64,000 nt of DNA from Brugia malayi (taxonomy: Eukaryota > Nematoda > Chromadorea > Rhabditida > Onchocercidae), in NCBI RefSeq assembly GCF_000002995.4, contig NW_025062476.1, positions 920,501-984,500 of the forward strand. The letters run 5' to 3'. The notes under the pieces are model-generated. The model had not been told where the DNA came from and did no database searches. It worked only from the letters and a program-made list of their open reading frames with translations. Each line of letters opens with the position of its first letter. Within the stretch, counting starts at the first letter, position 1. Below, piece after piece: positions 50,013 to 61,794 of the stretch. The translations under genes were made by a program, and so were the position numbers.

Positions 50013-50784
50013 GTCAAATGATCATCTATCGACTGATAGTTTTGCAGATACTTCTCGAATGATCATCTATCGATTGATAGTTTTGCAGATACTTCTCGAA
50101 TGATCATCTATCGATTGATAGTTTTGCAGATACCGCTCGAATGATCATCTATCGATTGATAATTTTGCAGATACCTCTCGAATGATCATCTATCGATTGA
50201 TAGTTTTGCAGATACCGCTCGAATGATCATCTATCGATTGATAGTTTTGCAGATACCTCTCGAATGATCATCTATCGATTGATAGTTTTGCAGATACTTC
50301 TCGAATGATCATCTATCGATTGATAGTTTTGCAGATACCGCTCGAATGATCATCTATCGATTGATAGTTTGCAGATACCTCTCGAATGATCATCTATCGA
50401 TTGATAGTTTTGCAGATACTTCTCGAATGATCATCTATCGATTGATAGTTTTGCAGATACTTCTCGAATGATCATCTATCGATTGATAGTTTTGCAGATA
50501 CCGCTCGAATGATCATCTATCGATTGATAGTTTTGCAGATACCTCTCGAATGATCATCTATCGATTGATAGTTTTGCAGATACCGCTCGAATGATCATCT
50601 ATCGATTGATAGTTTTGCAGATACCGCTCGAATGATCATCTATCGATTGATAGTTTTGCAGATACTTCTCGAATGATCATCTATCGATTGATAGTTTTGC
50701 AGATACTTCTCGAATGATCATCTATCGATTGATAGTTTTGCAGATACTTCTCGAATGATCATCTATCGATTGATAGTTTTGCAG
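50013..50784. repeat. 41-bp tandem array, about 18-19 units, with dyad
   Basis: Unit GAATGATCATCTATCGATTG followed by ATAGTTTTGCAGATACCTCTC. The CTATCGATTGATAG part is an inverted repeat (CTATC/GATAG). Units alternate at one variable site (CTTCTC, CCGCTC or CCTCTC after GATA); one unit has a single-base deletion near 50370. There are no unique spacers, so it is not a CRISPR array. Confidence 0.97.
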
Positions 50785-53090
50785 TTAAACTTAGAGTTTA
50801 TAATGGAATAAAATGGTCTAACATCAATTTTTCTCTTACTTATGATAAAAACTTAATGCATTTAGAAGTATATTTCCGTCACGAACACGTACTACACGGG
50901 AAAACATAATTATCAGTACTTCTACAAGTACTACTTGCAAATAATGATAATATCAAATTAAAACTATTGTACTATTATAAGATTAGTATCATTGTTATTT
51001 TATATTACTAATTTTGATGAAATTTCCACATTTATTTTCATCAATTATCTCAATTTATCATCATCATTATTACATTTAGTTCCTCATTTGTTATCATTTT
51101 TTCTTTCTCTTTTGTTTTTTTGTTTTCTATTTTTTATTCGCACTAGCAATTTCCAGCTTAATATCATAACCTTTAACCTTTAACCTACTTCATGCATGTT
51201 TGTTTTTTTTTTCCTTTTCATTATAAATTTGTACATCTTTTTCTTTTTTTTCCTCTTTTTTAATTGTAGGAATGAATGAGAAAGAATGCAATGAGAAAAA
51301 TAATTTCTTTTTTTTTTTTTTTCTAACAATTTTTCAAATAAAATACTGAAATTTTTTGATGAATAATTTAATTTGATGAATAAATTATGCAAAAAATTGT
51401 CAGTAAAATTCATTCGTCTCATAATCAGAGTAAAAAAAAAAAGAAAATAATAATTTGGGCACAAAAAAAATGAGAAAAAATAAAGAAAAAAAAAAAAAAA
51501 AAAAACATGGATAAACAAATTTTAACATATATTCTTTATCATGTTTAATATCTTTTCACATCAATTTTTTATCACAAATTTTTATTTTTCAAATTTTATT
51601 CAATCAAATTTTCTATTTTTGCTACAATTATTGAGAAATACATTTAACTATTTATGCATTATAAATTTATTTTTATATTTCAAAAGGTTTTCTTTTTTTT
51701 TCTCCCACTTTTAAAATTTCTAATTAATTTTAATTTTTCTATGTTTATATATATATCAGTAAAATTATGCTTTTAAGAAATTATTCTCAATATATGAAAG
51801 AAAAAAATTATTATTATATTGTAGTTTCCTTATTTTTATTTAGTAATAATTATCGGTAAATCTAGATAATGAATAATTATTGATAAGAATGTGATAAATT
51901 ATAGAATTAATTTATTATTCATTTTCTAAATTCTAAATACATACAAAAAAGTTTACCTAAGATATTTTCTGTGAAAATTGTAGTAACTGATAAGAGAAAT
52001 AAATGTCGATATAAATAATGATAGCGGTTGAAAGGTTATAGCAAAAGTGATAACGAATATTGATAATGATTAGTAAAAGATGAATTTATTTATTTATTGT
52101 TTATTTGTTTTTTTATTTATTATTTATTTGTAAATGCATTTTTACTTATTTATTATTTTAAAAATTACTCAAATATTTTGAGCAATGTATTAATTTAATC
52201 GTAATCAAAGCAGATTGCATAATAATAATGTTAGCTGTTTAAATTATTCCGTTTAATTTAAATTTAGAAATAATTTAATTCAGAAATAATTCTTTCTTTT
52301 CCTATGAGAAAAAAAAAATGATTTTATTTAAAGTTTGTAAAAAAATAAAAAAGTGCTATTTTTTTTTTTTTTTAATTTTTCGGAATAATAAAAAGACGAA
52401 GAAAAGAGAAAAAAAAAAAGCTTTTGAAGCATATATAAATGATAATAATTTCAAAAATAATATTTCGAAAAAAAAAGAATTTAAATTTAAAAAAAAAAAA
52501 ATTCAAAAGTAAATGTATTTCTATAAATTGAAAAGTCCAATGAATAATTCTAGAAATTCTTTTTTTCCTTTTTTGAAATTTAAATTTTTAGAAATTAGGA
52601 TCGTGAAAGACGAAATATTTAAATTATTATATCCAAAACTAACAAATTCCTCTTATCTAATTCCTAAATCTAATTTACATTTACAAAATTCATCTCACAC
52701 TTGATGATTCAATTTCCGAATATTTTTACATTTATAATTCAGCTATGTCTCATACTAATCTATTTCCTCCTTTCACACACTAAAACTAATCTTGTTAAAT
52801 ATAAGATGTGATAAAACTAGTTAACACCTGCAAAATTGTTTAGGGAAATCATTACTTTGTTAACAATCTTGTTTTTTCATCCATAGAAATTCTTCCATCT
52901 AATTTCTATTCGTTAAATCAGTCTTATATATATACCAACCAATCCTTCTATAACCATCATTTGCTTTATGTTTTGGGTGGTATTGGGATGCGTCTAATAC
53001 TTTATAATTTTGTATTATTTCACCATTTTTATATTATTGCATTTTATATAGTTTACGCGTTTGTTAATCGGTGTAGCATCCGTACGATAT
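50785..53090. other. AT-rich stretch upstream of the BEL/Pao element
   Basis: No host gene recognised. The last few hundred bases may belong to the element's 5' LTR, but no LTR start or matching 3' LTR could be found in the window. Confidence 0.5.
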
Positions 53091-53091
53091 G

Positions 53092-53098
53092 TATAAAG
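53092..53098 (+). promoter_or_regulatory. TATA box of the retroelement leader
   Basis: TATAAAG lies 35 bp before the first base of the embedded SL1 sequence and about 100 bp before the gag ATG. Spacing would put transcription initiation at or just before the SL1 copy. This is inference from position only. Confidence 0.5.
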
Positions 53099-53126
53099 CG
53101 CTATTATTTGCTTCATGTTAAATAAA

Positions 53127-53148
53127 GGTTTAATTACCCAAGTTTGAG
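53127..53148 (+). other. Exact 22-nt nematode SL1 spliced-leader sequence in retroelement leader
   Basis: Begins GGTTTAATTACCC and ends AAGTTTGAG, matching all 22 bases of nematode SL1. AATAAA is directly upstream (53121-53126) and GTTTCACG follows. A real SL RNA gene would have an intron-like part of about 80 nt with stem-loops and an Sm site. Here the primer-binding-like motif comes only 22 bases after the SL1 end. So this is not a normal SL RNA gene; it is SL1 sequence fused to, or captured by, the retroelement. Confidence 0.9.
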
Positions 53149-53164
53149 GTTTCACGACAAAAAT

Positions 53165-53188
53165 AATTTTTGGTGCCCGAGGTGAAGT
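53165..53188 (+). other. Primer-binding-site-like motif with overlapping Sm-site-like sequence
   Basis: TGGTGCCCGAGGTGAAGT from 53171 starts with TGG and lies just before gag, as expected for a tRNA primer-binding site. The overlapping AATTTTTGG at 53165-53173 resembles the Sm-protein site of nematode SL RNAs. The tRNA partner was not identified. Confidence 0.45.
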
Positions 53189-53193
53189 AAGGT

Positions 53194-54618
53194 ATGCCGA
53201 CCAGTATAATTGTTCAAGCTACACCAGTAAAAGCGAATCTCGAGGGAATCCTCGATGAAATACGACAATTGGATCTAACTCCGTTAGACCAAAAAGCGAC
53301 AGTAGAAGTATTGTGCCAGCAATACGAAGCAAGGGCAAGGATCATTAAAGAAAAGTTGATGCGCCTCGAAAAATACGTTGGCACTCTTGAGAAGATCAAC
53401 GACAAATGGTTGGAACACATTCAACTAGCCCCAATGTCGCAAAAGAAAAAAGAAGAAGAAAAATACGAACAAATGGCAAACAACGATAGAGGTATTTTAA
53501 AATTAATTAACATAAGTACGGATACCATTATAACCTTATCTATGTACAAGGATGATACAGAGTTAGCCCTTAAACGTCTAGCACAAATTAAAGAACCTAG
53601 CTTAACTGAATGTCGTCCAGTAGTAAATTTACCACAATTGTCGTTACCAACGTTTAGTGGAGACCCTAAAACATGGAGAGAATTCTGGAGTAGTTTCGAA
53701 GCCTCCTTACACTCTCAAAACATACCAGATATCCAAAAATTAAATTACTTGGTTTCTTGCTTAAGAGGAAACGCCCTACAGCTAGTAAGAGGTTACGATA
53801 GGGCACCTGAAAACTATAGAATTATAAGAGAATTATTAGTGGAAAAATTTGGTCGTGTTTCCACTATAAGAAAATTACTTTACAATGAACTCATATCTAC
53901 AAAACGAAACGACCGAGACTGGAAAACAATAATCGAAGAAATGGAGAGAGTTCTAAGGCAGTTAGAAGCAATTGGCGAAAACGTAGAGCAACCTACCATC
54001 GAAACGATAATAGAATCCGAATTGCCAAACTGGATATTAAACCAGGTTTATCAACAAAAAGAAGAAGATGGCCAGTGGTCCGTAACAAAACTTCGACAGC
54101 TTCTCAGGAAGACAATTAATAGAAACGACCAGGTAATGGAATGGCAATACTTGGATAACGTCAGTCGTAAAAATTTAATTAAACGTCATCCTAACGCAAG
54201 CATTCCAGAAAATTCAGCATTGATTGCAATAAAACAATCAAAGCAAATCAGAGGAACGGCTTCAGCCGAAAAGAACCAGCTAAATCAAGAGAATCCAAAT
54301 TGGTCGACAAATAAGAAAAAGAGACCCTGTATCTTCTGCAATAACAATCACTGGGATAGCAAGTGTCACATATATTCTACAGTGGAGCAGCGAATTGATC
54401 GATTGAAGGAAATCAGTGTTTGCTCTAATTGTTTTAAGTCTGGACACAACGAACTCAACTGCATAAAAAGAGCAAGTTGTTTTTATTGCAAAAAATCCCA
54501 CAATAGCGCCCTTTGTACCACTAAGACTCGTGATTCTGGGAAGATTGTTGCCAAAAATGCAAACATATCTGTTAATTCAACTAAGAAAGTTGAAAAGAAA
54601 CGAGTACTGCTTTTATGA
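53194..54618 (+). CDS. BEL/Pao retrotransposon gag-like protein
   Basis: Structural nucleocapsid-type polyprotein of 474 residues. The N-terminus is coiled and charged. A DUF1759-type Gag core follows (LPTFSGDPKTWREFWSSFEA, then LNYLVSCLRGNAL). Three zinc knuckles lie near the C-terminus: CIFCNNNHWDSKC, CSNCFKSGHNELNC and CFYCKKSHNSALC. The frame is intact from the first ATG after the primer-binding-like motif. It stops early where an internal deletion has removed the protease and the start of reverse transcriptase. The inverted partner at 58814-61790 lacks gag, so this is the only gag copy in the window. Confidence 0.9.
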   Translation: MPTSIIVQATPVKANLEGILDEIRQLDLTPLDQKATVEVLCQQYEARARIIKEKLMRLEKYVGTLEKINDKWLEHIQLAPMSQKKKEEEKYEQMANNDRGILKLINISTDTIITLSMYKDDTELALKRLAQIKEPSLTECRPVVNLPQLSLPTFSGDPKTWREFWSSFEASLHSQNIPDIQKLNYLVSCLRGNALQLVRGYDRAPENYRIIRELLVEKFGRVSTIRKLLYNELISTKRNDRDWKTIIEEMERVLRQLEAIGENVEQPTIETIIESELPNWILNQVYQQKEEDGQWSVTKLRQLLRKTINRNDQVMEWQYLDNVSRKNLIKRHPNASIPENSALIAIKQSKQIRGTASAEKNQLNQENPNWSTNKKKRPCIFCNNNHWDSKCHIYSTVEQRIDRLKEISVCSNCFKSGHNELNCIKRASCFYCKKSHNSALCTTKTRDSGKIVAKNANISVNSTKKVEKKRVLLL

Positions 54619-56862
54619 AGAGAAATTAATGTCTTTATTCATTATTCATTACCTGCCACATCATGATGTTCGTAATCCAGGTAAAACTACCACTAAGTTA
54701 AGGATTGTTTATGATGCTTCAGCGCACATAACCCTTTATGAATGAAAAGTTTAAATGAAGTATTATATCGTGGATCAATTAACCTCCCAGATCTTGTGGA
54801 TCTTGTGGGAGTATTATTACGCTTTAGAATGATGAAAGGGGTAATCACAGCTGACATTGAAAAGGCATTCTTACAAATACAGTTACACCCTTCAGAGAGA
54901 AATGGTACTCGCTTCCTTTGGCTAAAGGAAGTAGAAGGAAGTGTATCCAACGAGAATATAAAATGTTACCGTTTTAGAAGAATCCCGTTTGGAGTAATAT
55001 CATCCCCCTTTTTACTATCTGCTACCCTGAATTATCATTTGGAAAACCACGTTAGTGAATTAGCCGCAGAAATAAAGAAAAACCTTTATGTGGACAACAT
55101 TATTGTGTCATCAAACGGAACGCAGGAGGCATTAGAAAAATATGTGGAAATGAAATCCATCTTCAATGAAGCCTCAGTGAATCTAAGGGAGTTCTTATCT
55201 AACGACGAAGAATTTTATGCAGAACTGCCGCAGCAAGATCAAGCAATAAGAAAAAATACGAAAATCCTCGGCATCTCATGAAATCCCTGTCAAGACGTCA
55301 TTCAGATAAAATTAAATCCATGGAATGACCGAGAACTAACAAAAAGAACGATCTTACAGTTTGTTGCATCACAATATGATCCACTAGGATTTTTAGTTCC
55401 AATAATGGTAAGATTTAAAAATTTTTGCAAAATTTATGGAAAAAGAATAATTCGTGGGATCAGATATTAGATGAGCAAGACCATAAGCAATGGAAATTTC
55501 TTATTGCTGAATGGGCAACGGTCGTAAAAGACTTACCGCGATTTGTAACAACTTCTACAGATTTAATTGGAATACATGTATTTACTGATGCTTCAAGCGT
55601 AGCATATTCAGCAGCAGTGTATTTAGTGAGTCAGGATATGCAAGAAACAAAGTCATCGCTCATTTTTGCAAAATCTCGCATTGCTCCTATTAAAGGTATG
55701 ACAATACCGCGTCTAGAGCTAATGGCCATACTAATCGGAACGCGAGCAGCGCAATTTGTCATGACACAGCTGGATATCGTCAATACAAGGATAATTTTAT
55801 GGTCGGATTCTAAATGTGCTTTACATTGGATAAAAAACCATTCTAACCTATTACCAAGATTACTATTACCAAGAATATTATTTACATGCTTTACAACAAG
55901 AGCCATACATCTCGAATTAGCAGAAGACCAATCCGCAGAAACCTTTTTGCATGCTATCCGAAGATTTGTTGCGAGACGAGGGTGTCCTGAGCTAATTCTG
56001 AGTGACAATGCCACTCAATTCCAGGCTTTCAGATCTCTTATGACACAAGTCAAAGTCTCCAACTTCTTAGCAAAGGGAGGAATGACTTGGAAAAATATTA
56101 TACCAAAGGCTCCGTGGCAAGGAGGAATCTACGAGAGATTAATTGGGTTAACGAAAAATGCGCTAAGAAGAGCCATTGGCAGAAAATTCCTAGCGGAAAG
56201 GGAATTGGTAACATTAATTGCAGAAGTTGAAGGTATACTTAATACCCGACCACTAACGCCAATTTTGACGATTGCGTCATTATACGTCCAATTGATTTTA
56301 TCATGCCTAACGCTTCGCTCCATCTACCTATAAATGAAGTTTATAGGAGGCAGGAAGAAATCACCCCTTATAGACTAGATACCAGAGAAAAACTCGTGAG
56401 ACACTGGGAAAGTACCCTTAAAACTCTCAATGTTTTTTGGGAAATCTGGAGAACCGAATATTTAACTAGCCTCAGAGAACGCACGCAAAGGGAAATTACC
56501 TCATCCAAAGGAGCACAAAAAAGAACTCCAAAAAAGGGAGAGATTGTACTCTTAAATGAATCGGGAATTCCAAGAGGAATGTGGAAATTATTACGGATCA
56601 AGGACATCAAAATCGATAAAGACGGTAAAGTTAGGAACGTTCAGGTGGAAACTCCCACTGGGAAACTTCTCGATCGTCCAATAAATGTCTTGTATCCTCT
56701 CGAAGTTAATGATGAAGAAATTCATCTTGAACCTAATAAGAAAGAAAATATGAAAATTCCGGATACCAGTGAAGGCAAAAAAAGAATGCCAATGGAAAAC
56801 AGGAATACCGTTCAATATTCCAGAGAAATGGAACTGTGAAGAAATCACGGCACAGAACTCAA
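54619..56862 (+). pseudogene. BEL/Pao pol remnant, plus-strand arm
   Basis: Broken pol. The reverse transcriptase fragment starts mid-domain (IHYLPHHDVRNPGKTTTKLR), passes a stop (HITLYE-stop), then resumes at 54742-55281 with ITADIEKAFLQIQL and LYVDNIIVSS before another stop. An RNase H/integrase frame (55425-56333) has FTDASS, RLELMA and WSDSKCALHWIKN, then jumps at LLPRLLLPRILF straight to integrase TRAIHLELAEDQSAETF, LILSDNATQF, YERLIGLTKNALRRA and ILNTRPLTP. The zinc-binding part and the first acidic residue of integrase are therefore missing. The integrase tail frame (56303-56839) has GEIVLLNESGIPRGMWKL. About 0.75 kb is missing near 54635. A second deletion near 56763 fuses pol to env-like sequence. 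No active element is encoded. Confidence 0.9.
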
Positions 56863-58104: not shown

Positions 58105-58635
58105 TCATACTCAGATTACAATTCTGTTATACTCAGATTGTAATTCAGTTATACTCATACTCAGATTATAATTCGGTTATACTCAGATTATAATTCGGTT
58201 TCACTCATACTCAGATTATAACTCAGTTATACTCAGATTATAATTCAGTTACACTCAGATTATAATTCAGCTATACACAGATTATAATTCAGTTATACTT
58301 AGACTATAAATCAGTTATACTCAGATTATAATTCAGTTATACCCAGATTATATTCAGTTACACTCAGATTATAATTCAGTTATACACAGATTATAATTCA
58401 GTTATACACAGATTATGATTCAGTTATACTCAGAATATAAATCAGTTTTACTCAGATTATAATTCAGTTATACTCAGATTATAATTCAGTTACACTCAGA
58501 TTATAATTCAGTTATACTCAGATTATAATTCAGTTATACACAGATTATAATTCAGTTATACTCAGATTATAATTCAGTTATACTCATACTCAGATTATAA
58601 TTCAATTACACTCAGATTATAATTCAGATTATAAT
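58105..58635. repeat. 22-bp tandem array inside the env-like region
   Basis: About 25 units of ACTCAGATTATAATTCAGTT(AT) with small variants (ACACAG, ACTCATACTCAG). The array separates the env-like signal region (58640-58720) from the rest of env. Neighbouring env sequence contains TATAATCTG/AATTATAATCTG, so the array probably grew from it. Confidence 0.95.
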
Positions 58636-58639
58636 TTTT

Positions 58640-61600
58640 TTAATTACTGATAAAAGTGATTAAGTTACTGATTAAATTACAGATTATAATTACTGATAAA
58701 AGTGAGACCATTAAGTTACTCTTACTGACCTCCTTTAATCGAGATTGTCGTTTTGTATTGCTCCTAGTTCGCATCGCAATAGGTTCCTGGAGCTCCTCAG
58801 TGTTCTGTTCGGTTTCCGGAATTTTCATATTTTCTTTCTTATTAGGTTCAAGATGAATTTCTTCATCATTAACTTCGAGAGGATACAAGACATTTATTGG
58901 ACGATCGAGAAGTTTCCCAGTGGGAGTTTCCACCTGAACGTTCCTAACTTTACCGTCTTTATCGATTTTGATGTCCTTGATCCGTAATAATTTCCACATT
59001 CCTCTTGGAATTCCCGATTCATTTAAGAGTACAATCTCTCCCTTTTTTGGAGTTCTTTTTTGTGCTCCTTTGGATGAGGTAATTTCCCTTTGCGTGCGTT
59101 CTCTGAGGCTAGTTAAATATTCGGTTCTCCAGATTTCCCAAAAAACATTGAGAGTTTTAAGGGTACTTTCCCAGTGTCTCACGAGTTTTTCTCTGGTATC
59201 TAGTCTATAAGGGGTGATTTCTTCCTGCCTCCTATAAACTTCATTTATAGGTAGATGGAGCGAAGCGTTAGGCATGATAAAATCAATTGGACGTATAATG
59301 ACGCAATCGTCAAAATTGGCGTTAGTGGTCGGGTATTAAGTATACCTTCAACTTCTGCAATTAATGTTACCAATTCCCTTTCCGCTAGGAATTTTCTGCC
59401 AATGGCTCTTCTTAGCGCATTTTTCGTTAACCCAATTAATCTCTCGTAGATTCCTCCTTGCCACGGAGCCTTTGGTATAATATTTTTCCAAGTCATTCCT
59501 CCCTTTGCTAAGAAGTTGGAGACTTTGACTTGTGTCATAAGAGATCTGAAAGCCTGGAATTGAGTGGCATTGTCACTCAGAATTAGCTCAGGACACCCTC
59601 GTCTCGCAACAAATCTTCGGATAGCATGCAAAAAGGTTTCTGCGGATTGGTCTTCTGCTAATTCGAGATGTATGGCTCTTGTTGTAAAGCATGTAAATAA
59701 TATTCTTGGTAATAGTAATCTTGGTAATAGGTTAGAATGGTTTTTTATCCAATGTAAAGCACATTTAGAATCCGACCATAAAATTATCCTTGTATTGACG
59801 ATATCCAGCTGTGTCATGACAAATTGCGCTGCTCGCGTTCCGATTAGTATGGCCATTAGCTCTAGACGCGGTATTGTCATACCTTTAATAGGAGCAATGC
59901 GAGATTTTGCAAAAATGAGCGATGACTTTGTTTCTTGCATATCCTGACTCACTAAATACACTGCTGCTGAATATGCTACGCTTGAAGCATCAGTAAATAC
60001 ATGTATTCCAATTAAATCTGTAGAAGTTGTTACAAATCGCGGTAAGTCTTTTACGACCGTTGCCCATTCAGCAATAAGAAATTTCCATTGCTTATGGTCT
60101 TGCTCATCTAATATCTGATCCCACGAATTATTCTTTTTCCATAAATTTTGCAAAAATTTTTAAATCTTACCATTATTGGAACTAAAAATCCTAGTGGATC
60201 ATATTGTGATGCAACAAACTGTAAGATCGTTCTTTTTGTTAGTTCTCGGTCATTCCATGGATTTAATTTTATCTGAATGACGTCTTGACAGGGATTTCAT
60301 GAGATGCCGAGGATTTTCGTATTTTTTCTTATTGCTTGATCTTGCTGCGGCAGTTCTGCATAAAATTCTTCGTCGTTAGATAAGAACTCCCTTAGATTCA
60401 CTGAGGCTTCATTGAAGATGGATTTCATTTCCACATATTTTTCTAATGCCTCCTGCGTTCCGTTTGATGACACAATAATGTTGTCCACATAAAGGTTTTT
60501 CTTTATTTCTGCGGCTAATTCACTAGCGTGGTTTTCCAAATGATAATTCAGGGTAGCAGATAGTAAAAAGGGGGATGATATTACTCCAAACGGGATTCTT
60601 CTAAAACGGTAACATTTTATATTCTCGTTGGATACACTTCCTTCTACTTCCTTTAGCCAAAGGAAGCGAGTACCATTTCTCTCTGAAGGGTGTAACTGTA
60701 TTTGTAAGAATGCCTTTTCAATGTCAGCTGTGATTACCCCTTTCATCATTCTAAAGCGTAATAATACTCCCACAAGATCCACAAGATCTGGGAGGTTAAT
60801 TGATCCACGATATAATACTTCATTTAAACTTTTCATTCATAAAGGGTTATGTGCGCTGAAGCATCATAAACAATCCTTAACTTAGTGGTAGTTTTACCTG
60901 GATTACGAACATCATGATGTGGCAGGTAATGAATAATTCCATCTTGATTCATTTGTGATTGTACTTCTTCGATTATGCCAGATTGTAGTTGATCTTGCAT
61001 TACTTTATCATATTCTTGTAATTCCTCTTTATGGGACTGAAGTCGTGCTATTAGCATTCGCAAACGGCTGAAGCATAATCCATAATTATCGCTCAATTTG
61101 CCTTTGCATGGTTTCCATGGCCAACGTACTTCGTATCTTCCATTTTGTTCCATTTTGTTTAGTGATACTCTTCTTAAATTGTTACAGTGCCTGTTCATCA
61201 TCTTGTGTATCAGATCGATCTTGGATGCCAATACAGTCCAACTTCCAAAATTGATCTATATCTAGGGCACGGTTTTCTTGAGATGTCTTCGTTGCAAAGA
61301 TCTGGTGATGGCACAATTCATTTGTATAATCGCTTCCTGCTATGATAGGTCCAACTTTGCTGTTCAGTAAAATGAATCCTGACTTTAGTTGCTGAGCGTT
61401 TTCCATATGAATAAAGTTGAAGAAATAGTCAGCTCCTTTGTCTACCACTTCCATCACTTGAAGATCGTTTGTCAAATAATCCATTACAGTGGCTTGGATA
61501 GTCACTTGATCGGAGTTTCCCGTTTTCACTCCATACTCGAGGAGTCCTATTGCCAAAGGAAGAGATCTTATATTCTTCTTCATCAGTTTCTAGGAGATTT

Positions 61601-61790
61601 AGTCGATGAGCTAGCCTTTGTGAGATAAAGGTCGCATCTGCGCCGACGTCAAACAGTACTAAAGCTTGTACTTGATGTTCAGGTTTATCACGATTAAAAA
61701 CACTAATTTCTCTACATAAAAGCAGTACTCGTTTCTTTTCAACTTTCTTAGTTGAATTAACAGATATGTTTGCATTTTTGGCAACAATTA
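58640..61790 (-). pseudogene. BEL/Pao protease-RT-RNase H-integrase remnant, minus-strand arm
   Basis: Read from 61790 downwards. Aspartic protease has LVLFDVGADATFISQRLAHR, then shifts frame near 61540 and continues as [19 protein letters not shown]. The RT N-terminus (60833-61231) has YEVRWPWKPCKGKLSDNYGL, ELQEYDKVMQDQLQSG and LRIVYDASA, ending at the same stop as the plus arm. The RT core (60297-60836) has ITADIEKAFLQIQL and LYVDN. RNase H/integrase (59245-60153) carries the same fused deletion as the plus arm. The integrase tail frame (58640-59275) runs on through ETEQNTEELQEPIAMRTRSN into a hydrophobic LMVSLLSVIIICNLISNLIT, probably the env signal segment. It begins abruptly inside the gag end (VAKNANISVNSTKK), so gag is absent. 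Confidence 0.9.
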
Positions 61791-61794
61791 GCAT

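Follow-up and report, generated by a model that had tools for sequence, protein, structure and literature searches.

In the genome of Brugia malayi, the spliced-leader sequence SL1 is an inherited internal part of the LTRs of BEL/Pao retroelements, as is shown for one family, here called family A. LTR elements transpose via an RNA, the start of which is termed R. The explanation preferred here, with a probability of roughly 60%, is that a trans-spliced element RNA was reverse transcribed, whereby SL1 became the start of R and has been inherited within the LTR.

Results

The SL1-bearing element of the window

The window, the whole stretch of 64,000 nucleotides that was analysed, lies on contig C136 of the searched genome (86.8 Mb, 139 contigs). 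A first-pass annotation had reported a complete SL1 in it, too long to have arisen by chance, and both statements hold: all 22 bases of SL1 are present on the plus strand at 53127-53148, the sole match in the window even if up to 3 mismatches are tolerated, and 0 of 100 dinucleotide shuffles of the window produced a match at this tolerance. The arrangement described around it was equally borne out, with TATAAAG at 53092-53098, its first T 35 bases 5' of SL1, AATAAA at 53121-53126 directly adjoining the SL1 start, TGGTGCCC from 53171, separated from the end of SL1 by 22 bases, and the gag ATG at 53194.

SL1 is situated within the 5' LTR of a plus-strand element (52598-53159, about 562 bp), the ends of which were set via solo LTRs with 5-bp target duplications and via paired LTRs; the first two bases of this LTR are unlike the TG start of most other copies seen. 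The AATAAA, a putative polyadenylation signal, occupies the same place in 11/11 family A copies checked. Downstream of SL1, the putative start of R according to the sequence match and the homology boundaries, comparison with other copies delimits a short U5, GTTTCACGACA (53149-53159), the last 10 bases of which are inverse to TGTCGTGAAA, the sequence at which the LTR of other copies begins. The primer-binding site (53171-53187, plus strand) is complementary at 16 of 17 positions to the 3' end of a tRNA-Met(CAT) gene, called on locus L153, if the CCA that is added to tRNA ends is assumed; in the short-U5 family A elements from the LTR-pair comparison, the complementarity is 17/17.

The assignment to BEL/Pao, which had also been proposed before, is supported by DUF1759, RVT_1, Peptidase_A17, DUF5641 and DUF1758, all of which exceed their Pfam cut-offs, while the integrase core scores 23.4 bits, under its cut-off of 32.6, and 3 of the 8 frames scanned with Pfam gave no match. 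According to the open reading frame list and Pfam, a gag frame of 474 aa with DUF1759 extends over 53194-54618, followed by pol pieces in separate frames (reverse transcriptase, Pao peptidase A17, the weak integrase core and DUF5641; 54742-56839), all on the plus strand. Further BEL/Pao features are the TG...CA ends and short target duplications of family A LTRs (TGTCGTGAAA...TTTCACGACA) and the primer-binding site complementary to a host tRNA, tRNA-Met. An SL1 RNA gene was rejected as the identity of the window locus: SL1 is followed by GTTTCACGACA and not by GTAATTGAATG, and an Rfam search of the window at gathering thresholds returned no match. Rfam includes an SL1 family.

No second LTR of the element was found within the window. 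A second, inverted copy of the same element occupies 58640-61794 on the minus strand; the matching arms (54641-56767 and 58811-60937) are 2127 bp long, 99.9% identical and about 2 kb apart, and about 750 bp that lie between matched pieces of the minus-strand copy are missing in the plus-strand copy. Between the inverted copies is an array of 23 copies of a 22-bp unit (58107-58633), which has the length of SL1 and a different sequence, and 50017-50784 holds 18.8 copies of a 41-bp unit with 97% matches.

SL1 is internal to the LTRs of family A

The family A LTR spans TGTCGTGAAA to TTTCACGACA, with 11 bases between SL1 and the 3' terminus of the LTR. The examined loci contain 42 distinct SL1-LTR ends, and a recognisable LTR start was found for 25 of them. 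Ten of these 25 are solo LTRs flanked by 5-bp target duplications, and 14 of the other 15 adjoin internal element sequence on one side; the one left unexplained (L082) probably has a misplaced LTR start. The earlier suggestion to look for SL1 in both LTRs of intact copies was fruitful: in addition to the solo LTRs, three of six LTR pairs compared carry SL1 in both LTRs and have the same five bases outside (C139:6233.6-6239.9 kb, C139:5158.6-5164.9 kb and a short element at C139:23187.9-23191.4 kb). The mismatches among aligned bases within these pairs amount to 0/508, 1/508 and 6/505, the third with 15 gap columns. The presence of SL1 in both LTRs, together with matching flanks and few differences, shows that the element passes SL1 on as part of itself and that some of its copies arose recently. 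The three pairs without matching flanks are L065/L064 and L064/L084, which are part of a tandem arrangement, and L086/L085, in which the LTR start was set too far in. On C136, six SL1-LTR ends of the same orientation (L054-L059, G000:C136:10316009-10326191) follow one another at an exact spacing of 2031 bp, apparently owing to local tandem amplification.

SL1 in further copies and groups

An alignment of genomic copies had been proposed as a search for family members that lack SL1. Wherever a copy of groups A, B and C was read, SL1 itself or a remnant altered by decay or deletion was present, the reading sample covering part of group B and most of family C. Loci L031-L090 comprise 46 distinct family A copies, 44 with an exact SL1 (including L033, which has an added TTTGAG), one with a mismatch and one rearranged, half of these loci having been chosen for an exact SL1. 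When family A was defined by LTR similarity alone, 40 of 41 matches spanned SL1 and 38 of these 40 were exact by place; this search scored 40 of 80 candidates, and the family may thus be larger. Thirty of the 40 spanning matches were read: 28 are exact, L063 being exact up to the contig end, L088 has 1 mismatch, and L089 is a rearranged remnant. In L089, the otherwise family A-like LTR contains an SL1 with an internal deletion, behind which a TTTGAG-U5 piece is doubled.

The searches for family C and group B scored 40 of 80 and 40 of 123 candidates, respectively. For family C, 42 of 43 matches span SL1; the 33 that were read comprise 13 exact and 20 decayed or partly deleted sequences, 2 more are exact by place, and one copy, L115, was found by pattern only. 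Among the 44 group B matches, 17 were read; SL1 is exact in 11 of them and shows 1 to 6 differences in the other 6. Both LTR ends were resolved in 3 of 14 family C copies, with an exact 5-bp duplication in one (L116, 5/5) and flank matches of 2/5 and 0/5 in L100 and L109, in both of which an end is perhaps misplaced; L117, L118 and L119 have common flanks and represent one insertion copied together with its surroundings. Groups B and C are described here as LTR-like, the placement of SL1 inside an LTR being demonstrated for family A.

Group D (L111, L113, L120 and L154) also has SL1 and was left out of the LTR group count. In L154 and L155, the first site is followed downstream by another SL1-like stretch, which is degenerate (0/500 shuffles as good) and may stem from duplication or an older capture; L111 shows a weak one (4/500), and none was found in L113 (371/500) or L120 (260/500). 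Among the copies examined, there was no SL1-less sister LTR that would show the state before capture.

The genome contains 303 exact SL1 sequences, 64 of which directly follow AATAAA, as in the window. A, G or T stands just before SL1 in 103 of them (100 of the 103 were listed), and C in the other 200, as in the tandem SL1 genes on C18, where GATCGAC precedes SL1 and GTAATTG follows it. The C-preceded class was read in part, and at least 2 of its members (C16:30623 and C23:6595) are group B LTR copies and not SL1 genes. One isolated exact SL1 (L122, G000:C139:19250240-19250810), possibly a retrocopy of a trans-spliced mRNA, has flanks unlike the arrays and groups A-D. A scan of IMG/VR for SL1 gave 0 matches, records near the genome itself perhaps being excluded from that scan.

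Flanking signals and module exchange at SL1

The sequences next to SL1 were compared between six representatives chosen for an exact SL1 (A, long-U5 A, B, B3, C and D), using 60 bases before and 40 bases after it. Of the 30 comparisons, 23 fell below the 95% value of shuffles, 4 equalled it and 3 exceeded it, namely A with long-U5 A upstream, and A with C as well as B with B3 downstream. In family C, the commonest letter is that of SL1 at 22/22 columns. Further upstream, U3 segments of A copies and of L011 match at 86-98%, and the groups are thus related or mosaic.

The AATAAA starts at -6 in family A, abutting SL1, 4 nt after SL1 in 9/11 B copies and 8 nt after it in 10/11 C copies, and is absent near SL1 in the B copies L003 and L011. 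Such a placement would set the 3' end of R within SL1 or shortly behind it. The splice-site consensus is AG/G, and a G directly follows SL1 in 36 of the 37 A, B, B3 and C copies tallied, as at such junctions; another base is found in L033, L110 and L120.

The first-pass annotation had taken the TATA spacing as an argument that the transcript starts at SL1. A TATAWA with its first T at -35/-34 was indeed seen in all 11 family A copies checked, but none was found between -40 and -25 in 26 SL1-bearing copies of other groups (11 B, 4 B3 and 11 C), and the spacing was rejected as a general argument. TATA-like motifs also occur farther upstream, near -200 and -120, in some of the A and B copies. Of the capture reading that this spacing was meant to favour, the placement of SL1 in the LTR stands, by virtue of the two-LTR elements and solo LTRs, and the promoter argument is weak.

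The same annotation had expected a homology boundary at SL1 if a trans-spliced RNA had been inserted. Such boundaries exist, but they lie between element types and thus indicate the swapping of modules and not a single RNA insertion. All 7 long-U5 copies match the U3 of the window (pieces of 93.8-100%), with homology ending 4 nt after SL1, and L037, L040 and L053 match the window LTR at 94-95% from 52610 to 53152. Upstream, L086 matches the window at 97%, although the identity of the gag proteins is 48% over 319 residues and 50% over a further 64, and the primer-binding sites are not the same. In the group B search, 8 of 44 matches end 1-3 nt after SL1, and in the two of these that were read (L003 and L011) a family A U5 continues after SL1. 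Homology breaks at or just after SL1 are expected if SL1 begins R, since first-strand transfer would then take place between RNAs with only R in common. It should be noted that DNA recombination or gene conversion would also explain a swap at SL1, which is a common stretch there, that the U3 is mosaic elsewhere too, and that the long-U5 swap also requires a second crossover near the LTR start.

Inheritance of SL1

Two copies of family C, L132 and L134, have four SL1 changes in common and different left flanks, and L133 and L136 have one change in common and different flanks, the L133 copy being truncated at the left. As the changes recur at separate insertions, mutated SL1 has been copied through transposition. 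The LTR thus serves as the template for SL1, which is not in every case supplied anew by SL RNA, and the spread of L132/L134 despite four changes implies that an exact SL1 is not strictly needed for mobility.

In family C, 29 of 716 SL1 letters vary (4.1%), compared with 4.0-9.1% in the flanks, and gaps are commoner in SL1 (4.3% versus 0.3-1.7%); this sample consists of 14 copies picked for an exact SL1 and 20 of 27 non-exact ones. Settled family C copies thus appear to be under no constraint on SL1, and its exactness would be kept only in spreading lineages. A doubled TTTGAG behind SL1 was found in two copies, L033 of family A and L131 of family C. As proof of trans-splicing, this doubling was rejected, because it comprises one exact case in the genome and one with a mutated SL1.

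Discussion

Probable capture of SL1 and its possible use as R

From the position of SL1, the AATAAA placement and the homology breaks, it is inferred that R begins at SL1. According to the preferred explanation, the RNA of an ancestral element would have been SL1 trans-spliced upstream of its own primer-binding site, and reverse transcription of that RNA would have turned SL1 into the first part of R, in the order U3-SL1-U5. An RNA with an SL1 5' end could subsequently serve irrespective of its origin, as a transcription start at SL1 and trans-splicing at the SL1/U5 border would both give an RNA beginning with SL1; the cap would differ. For such an SL1-headed RNA, any SL1-bearing 3' LTR could accept the first strand transfer, the element would thereby tolerate host trans-splicing, and diverged families could exchange U3 through the common SL1. 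A further-reaching version is put forward tentatively, the odds being against it: that SL1 is a working R, that the genomic RNA owes the supply or repair of its 5' end to trans-splicing by the host, and that SL1 is a universal strand-transfer adaptor for the trade of U3 between distant BEL/Pao families.

Several other explanations have to be weighed. It is possible, at odds clearly short of even, that RNA polymerase II begins at the first base of SL1, so that the RNA only looks trans-spliced and trans-splicing no longer takes place. The TATAWA of family A would suit this, as would the SL1 mutations common to separate sites, which show templating by the LTR; however, B, B3 and C copies have SL1 and no TATAWA at this distance, and an RNA started from the TATA-like motifs farther upstream, near -200 and -120, would have a longer 5' outron. 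It is rather doubtful that, conversely, element RNA is trans-spliced at the SL1/U5 border in every cycle, the SL1 of each new LTR being copied from host SL RNA and thereby kept exact. This would account for the same SL1 amid flanks that in 23 of 30 comparisons fall below the shuffle value and for the doubled TTTGAG, which would arise if the RNA were spliced to the AAG within a resident SL1; in addition, 70% of host genes are estimated to be SL1 trans-spliced (PMC7181701), and spliced mRNA of the C. elegans element Cer1 has been found with and without SL1 (PMC3315495). Nevertheless, the changes common to L132/L134 and to L133/L136 were copied from the LTR, the exact doubling occurs once in the genome and could be due to slippage, and the full-length 8-kb RNA of Cer1 was reported not to be trans-spliced (PMC3315495).

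Alternatively, SL1 might have been captured once and carried along without a role, its exactness reflecting youth and the copying of few masters. The neutral-looking variation in family C and the remnant-only copies L089, L130, L135 and L141 would agree with such a passive relic, which is nevertheless unlikely, since groups with differing immediate flanks all keep SL1, the commonest letters of family C equal SL1 at all columns, and the homology breaks at SL1 point to its use as R. That DNA recombination with an SL RNA gene brought SL1 into the LTRs is very improbable: tandem SL1 genes are abundant, but the common stretch is exactly the spliced exon, and the gene flanks on either side were seen in no A, B or C copy read, although one flank reading left out places with GTAATTGAATG after SL1, which were taken as gene copies. 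The second reading of the first-pass annotation, a one-off integration of trans-spliced element RNA at the window locus, can be regarded as refuted, because two-LTR elements carry SL1 in each LTR, many dispersed copies have it too, SL1 or a remnant occurs in every A, B and C copy read, and it is LTR-internal in family A.

Implications and comparison with known systems

Trans-splicing replaces the 5' ends of RNAs and should therefore remove R from LTR elements that have a leader splice acceptor; a leader encoded as R would be an elegant answer to this loss. SL1 as R would create a testable link between spliced-leader systems and retroelement replication, and SL1 could be used as a tag for tracing the exchange of promoters between families. 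One practical consequence is that SL1-selected RNA libraries may contain element RNA that was never trans-spliced. As SL1 is encoded in the DNA, the sequence of published SL1-selected reads (PRJNA525735, named in PMC7181701) would not by itself tell a transcription start at SL1 from trans-splicing.

The association itself is already published for the same species. Foster et al. (2020, PMC7181701) reported 316 SL1 signatures in B. malayi, 120 of which are integral and outside SL1 arrays; 60 of these lie within 1 kb of PAO elements, occasionally one per side on the same strand, and the authors inferred that expressed PAO elements had received spliced leaders, which were carried along on integration. 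The phenomenon and the capture idea are thus theirs. In the available part of that report, SL1 is described as flanking the elements, whereas here it lies inside the LTR at the putative start of R. Relative to that text, the additions are the LTR placement, the target duplications, the paired LTRs, further LTR-like groups, SL1 mutations in common and the U3 swaps. Among the open-licence PMC papers listed by the searches, no title or beginning of an abstract places SL1 inside the LTR or presents it as R.

Three other systems show partial similarities, as far as the available portions of the reports describe them. Cer1 of C. elegans (Gypsy/Ty3; PMC3315495) is likewise an LTR element, the spliced mRNA of which can gain SL1 by trans-splicing, but there SL1 is joined to the RNA at a splice acceptor, and no DNA-encoded SL1 is described. 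In the solo LTRs of Echinococcus ta-TRIM elements (PMC4558846), a transcript from the LTR and the spliced leader are presumed to be rivals for a splice acceptor, and no spliced leader inside the LTR is described. In dinoflagellates (PMC6050394, PMC12014239), the leader enters the DNA via reverse transcription of trans-spliced mRNA, as is proposed here; however, the resulting retrogenes are retroposed cellular genes, in contrast to an LTR element that keeps the leader among its replication signals.
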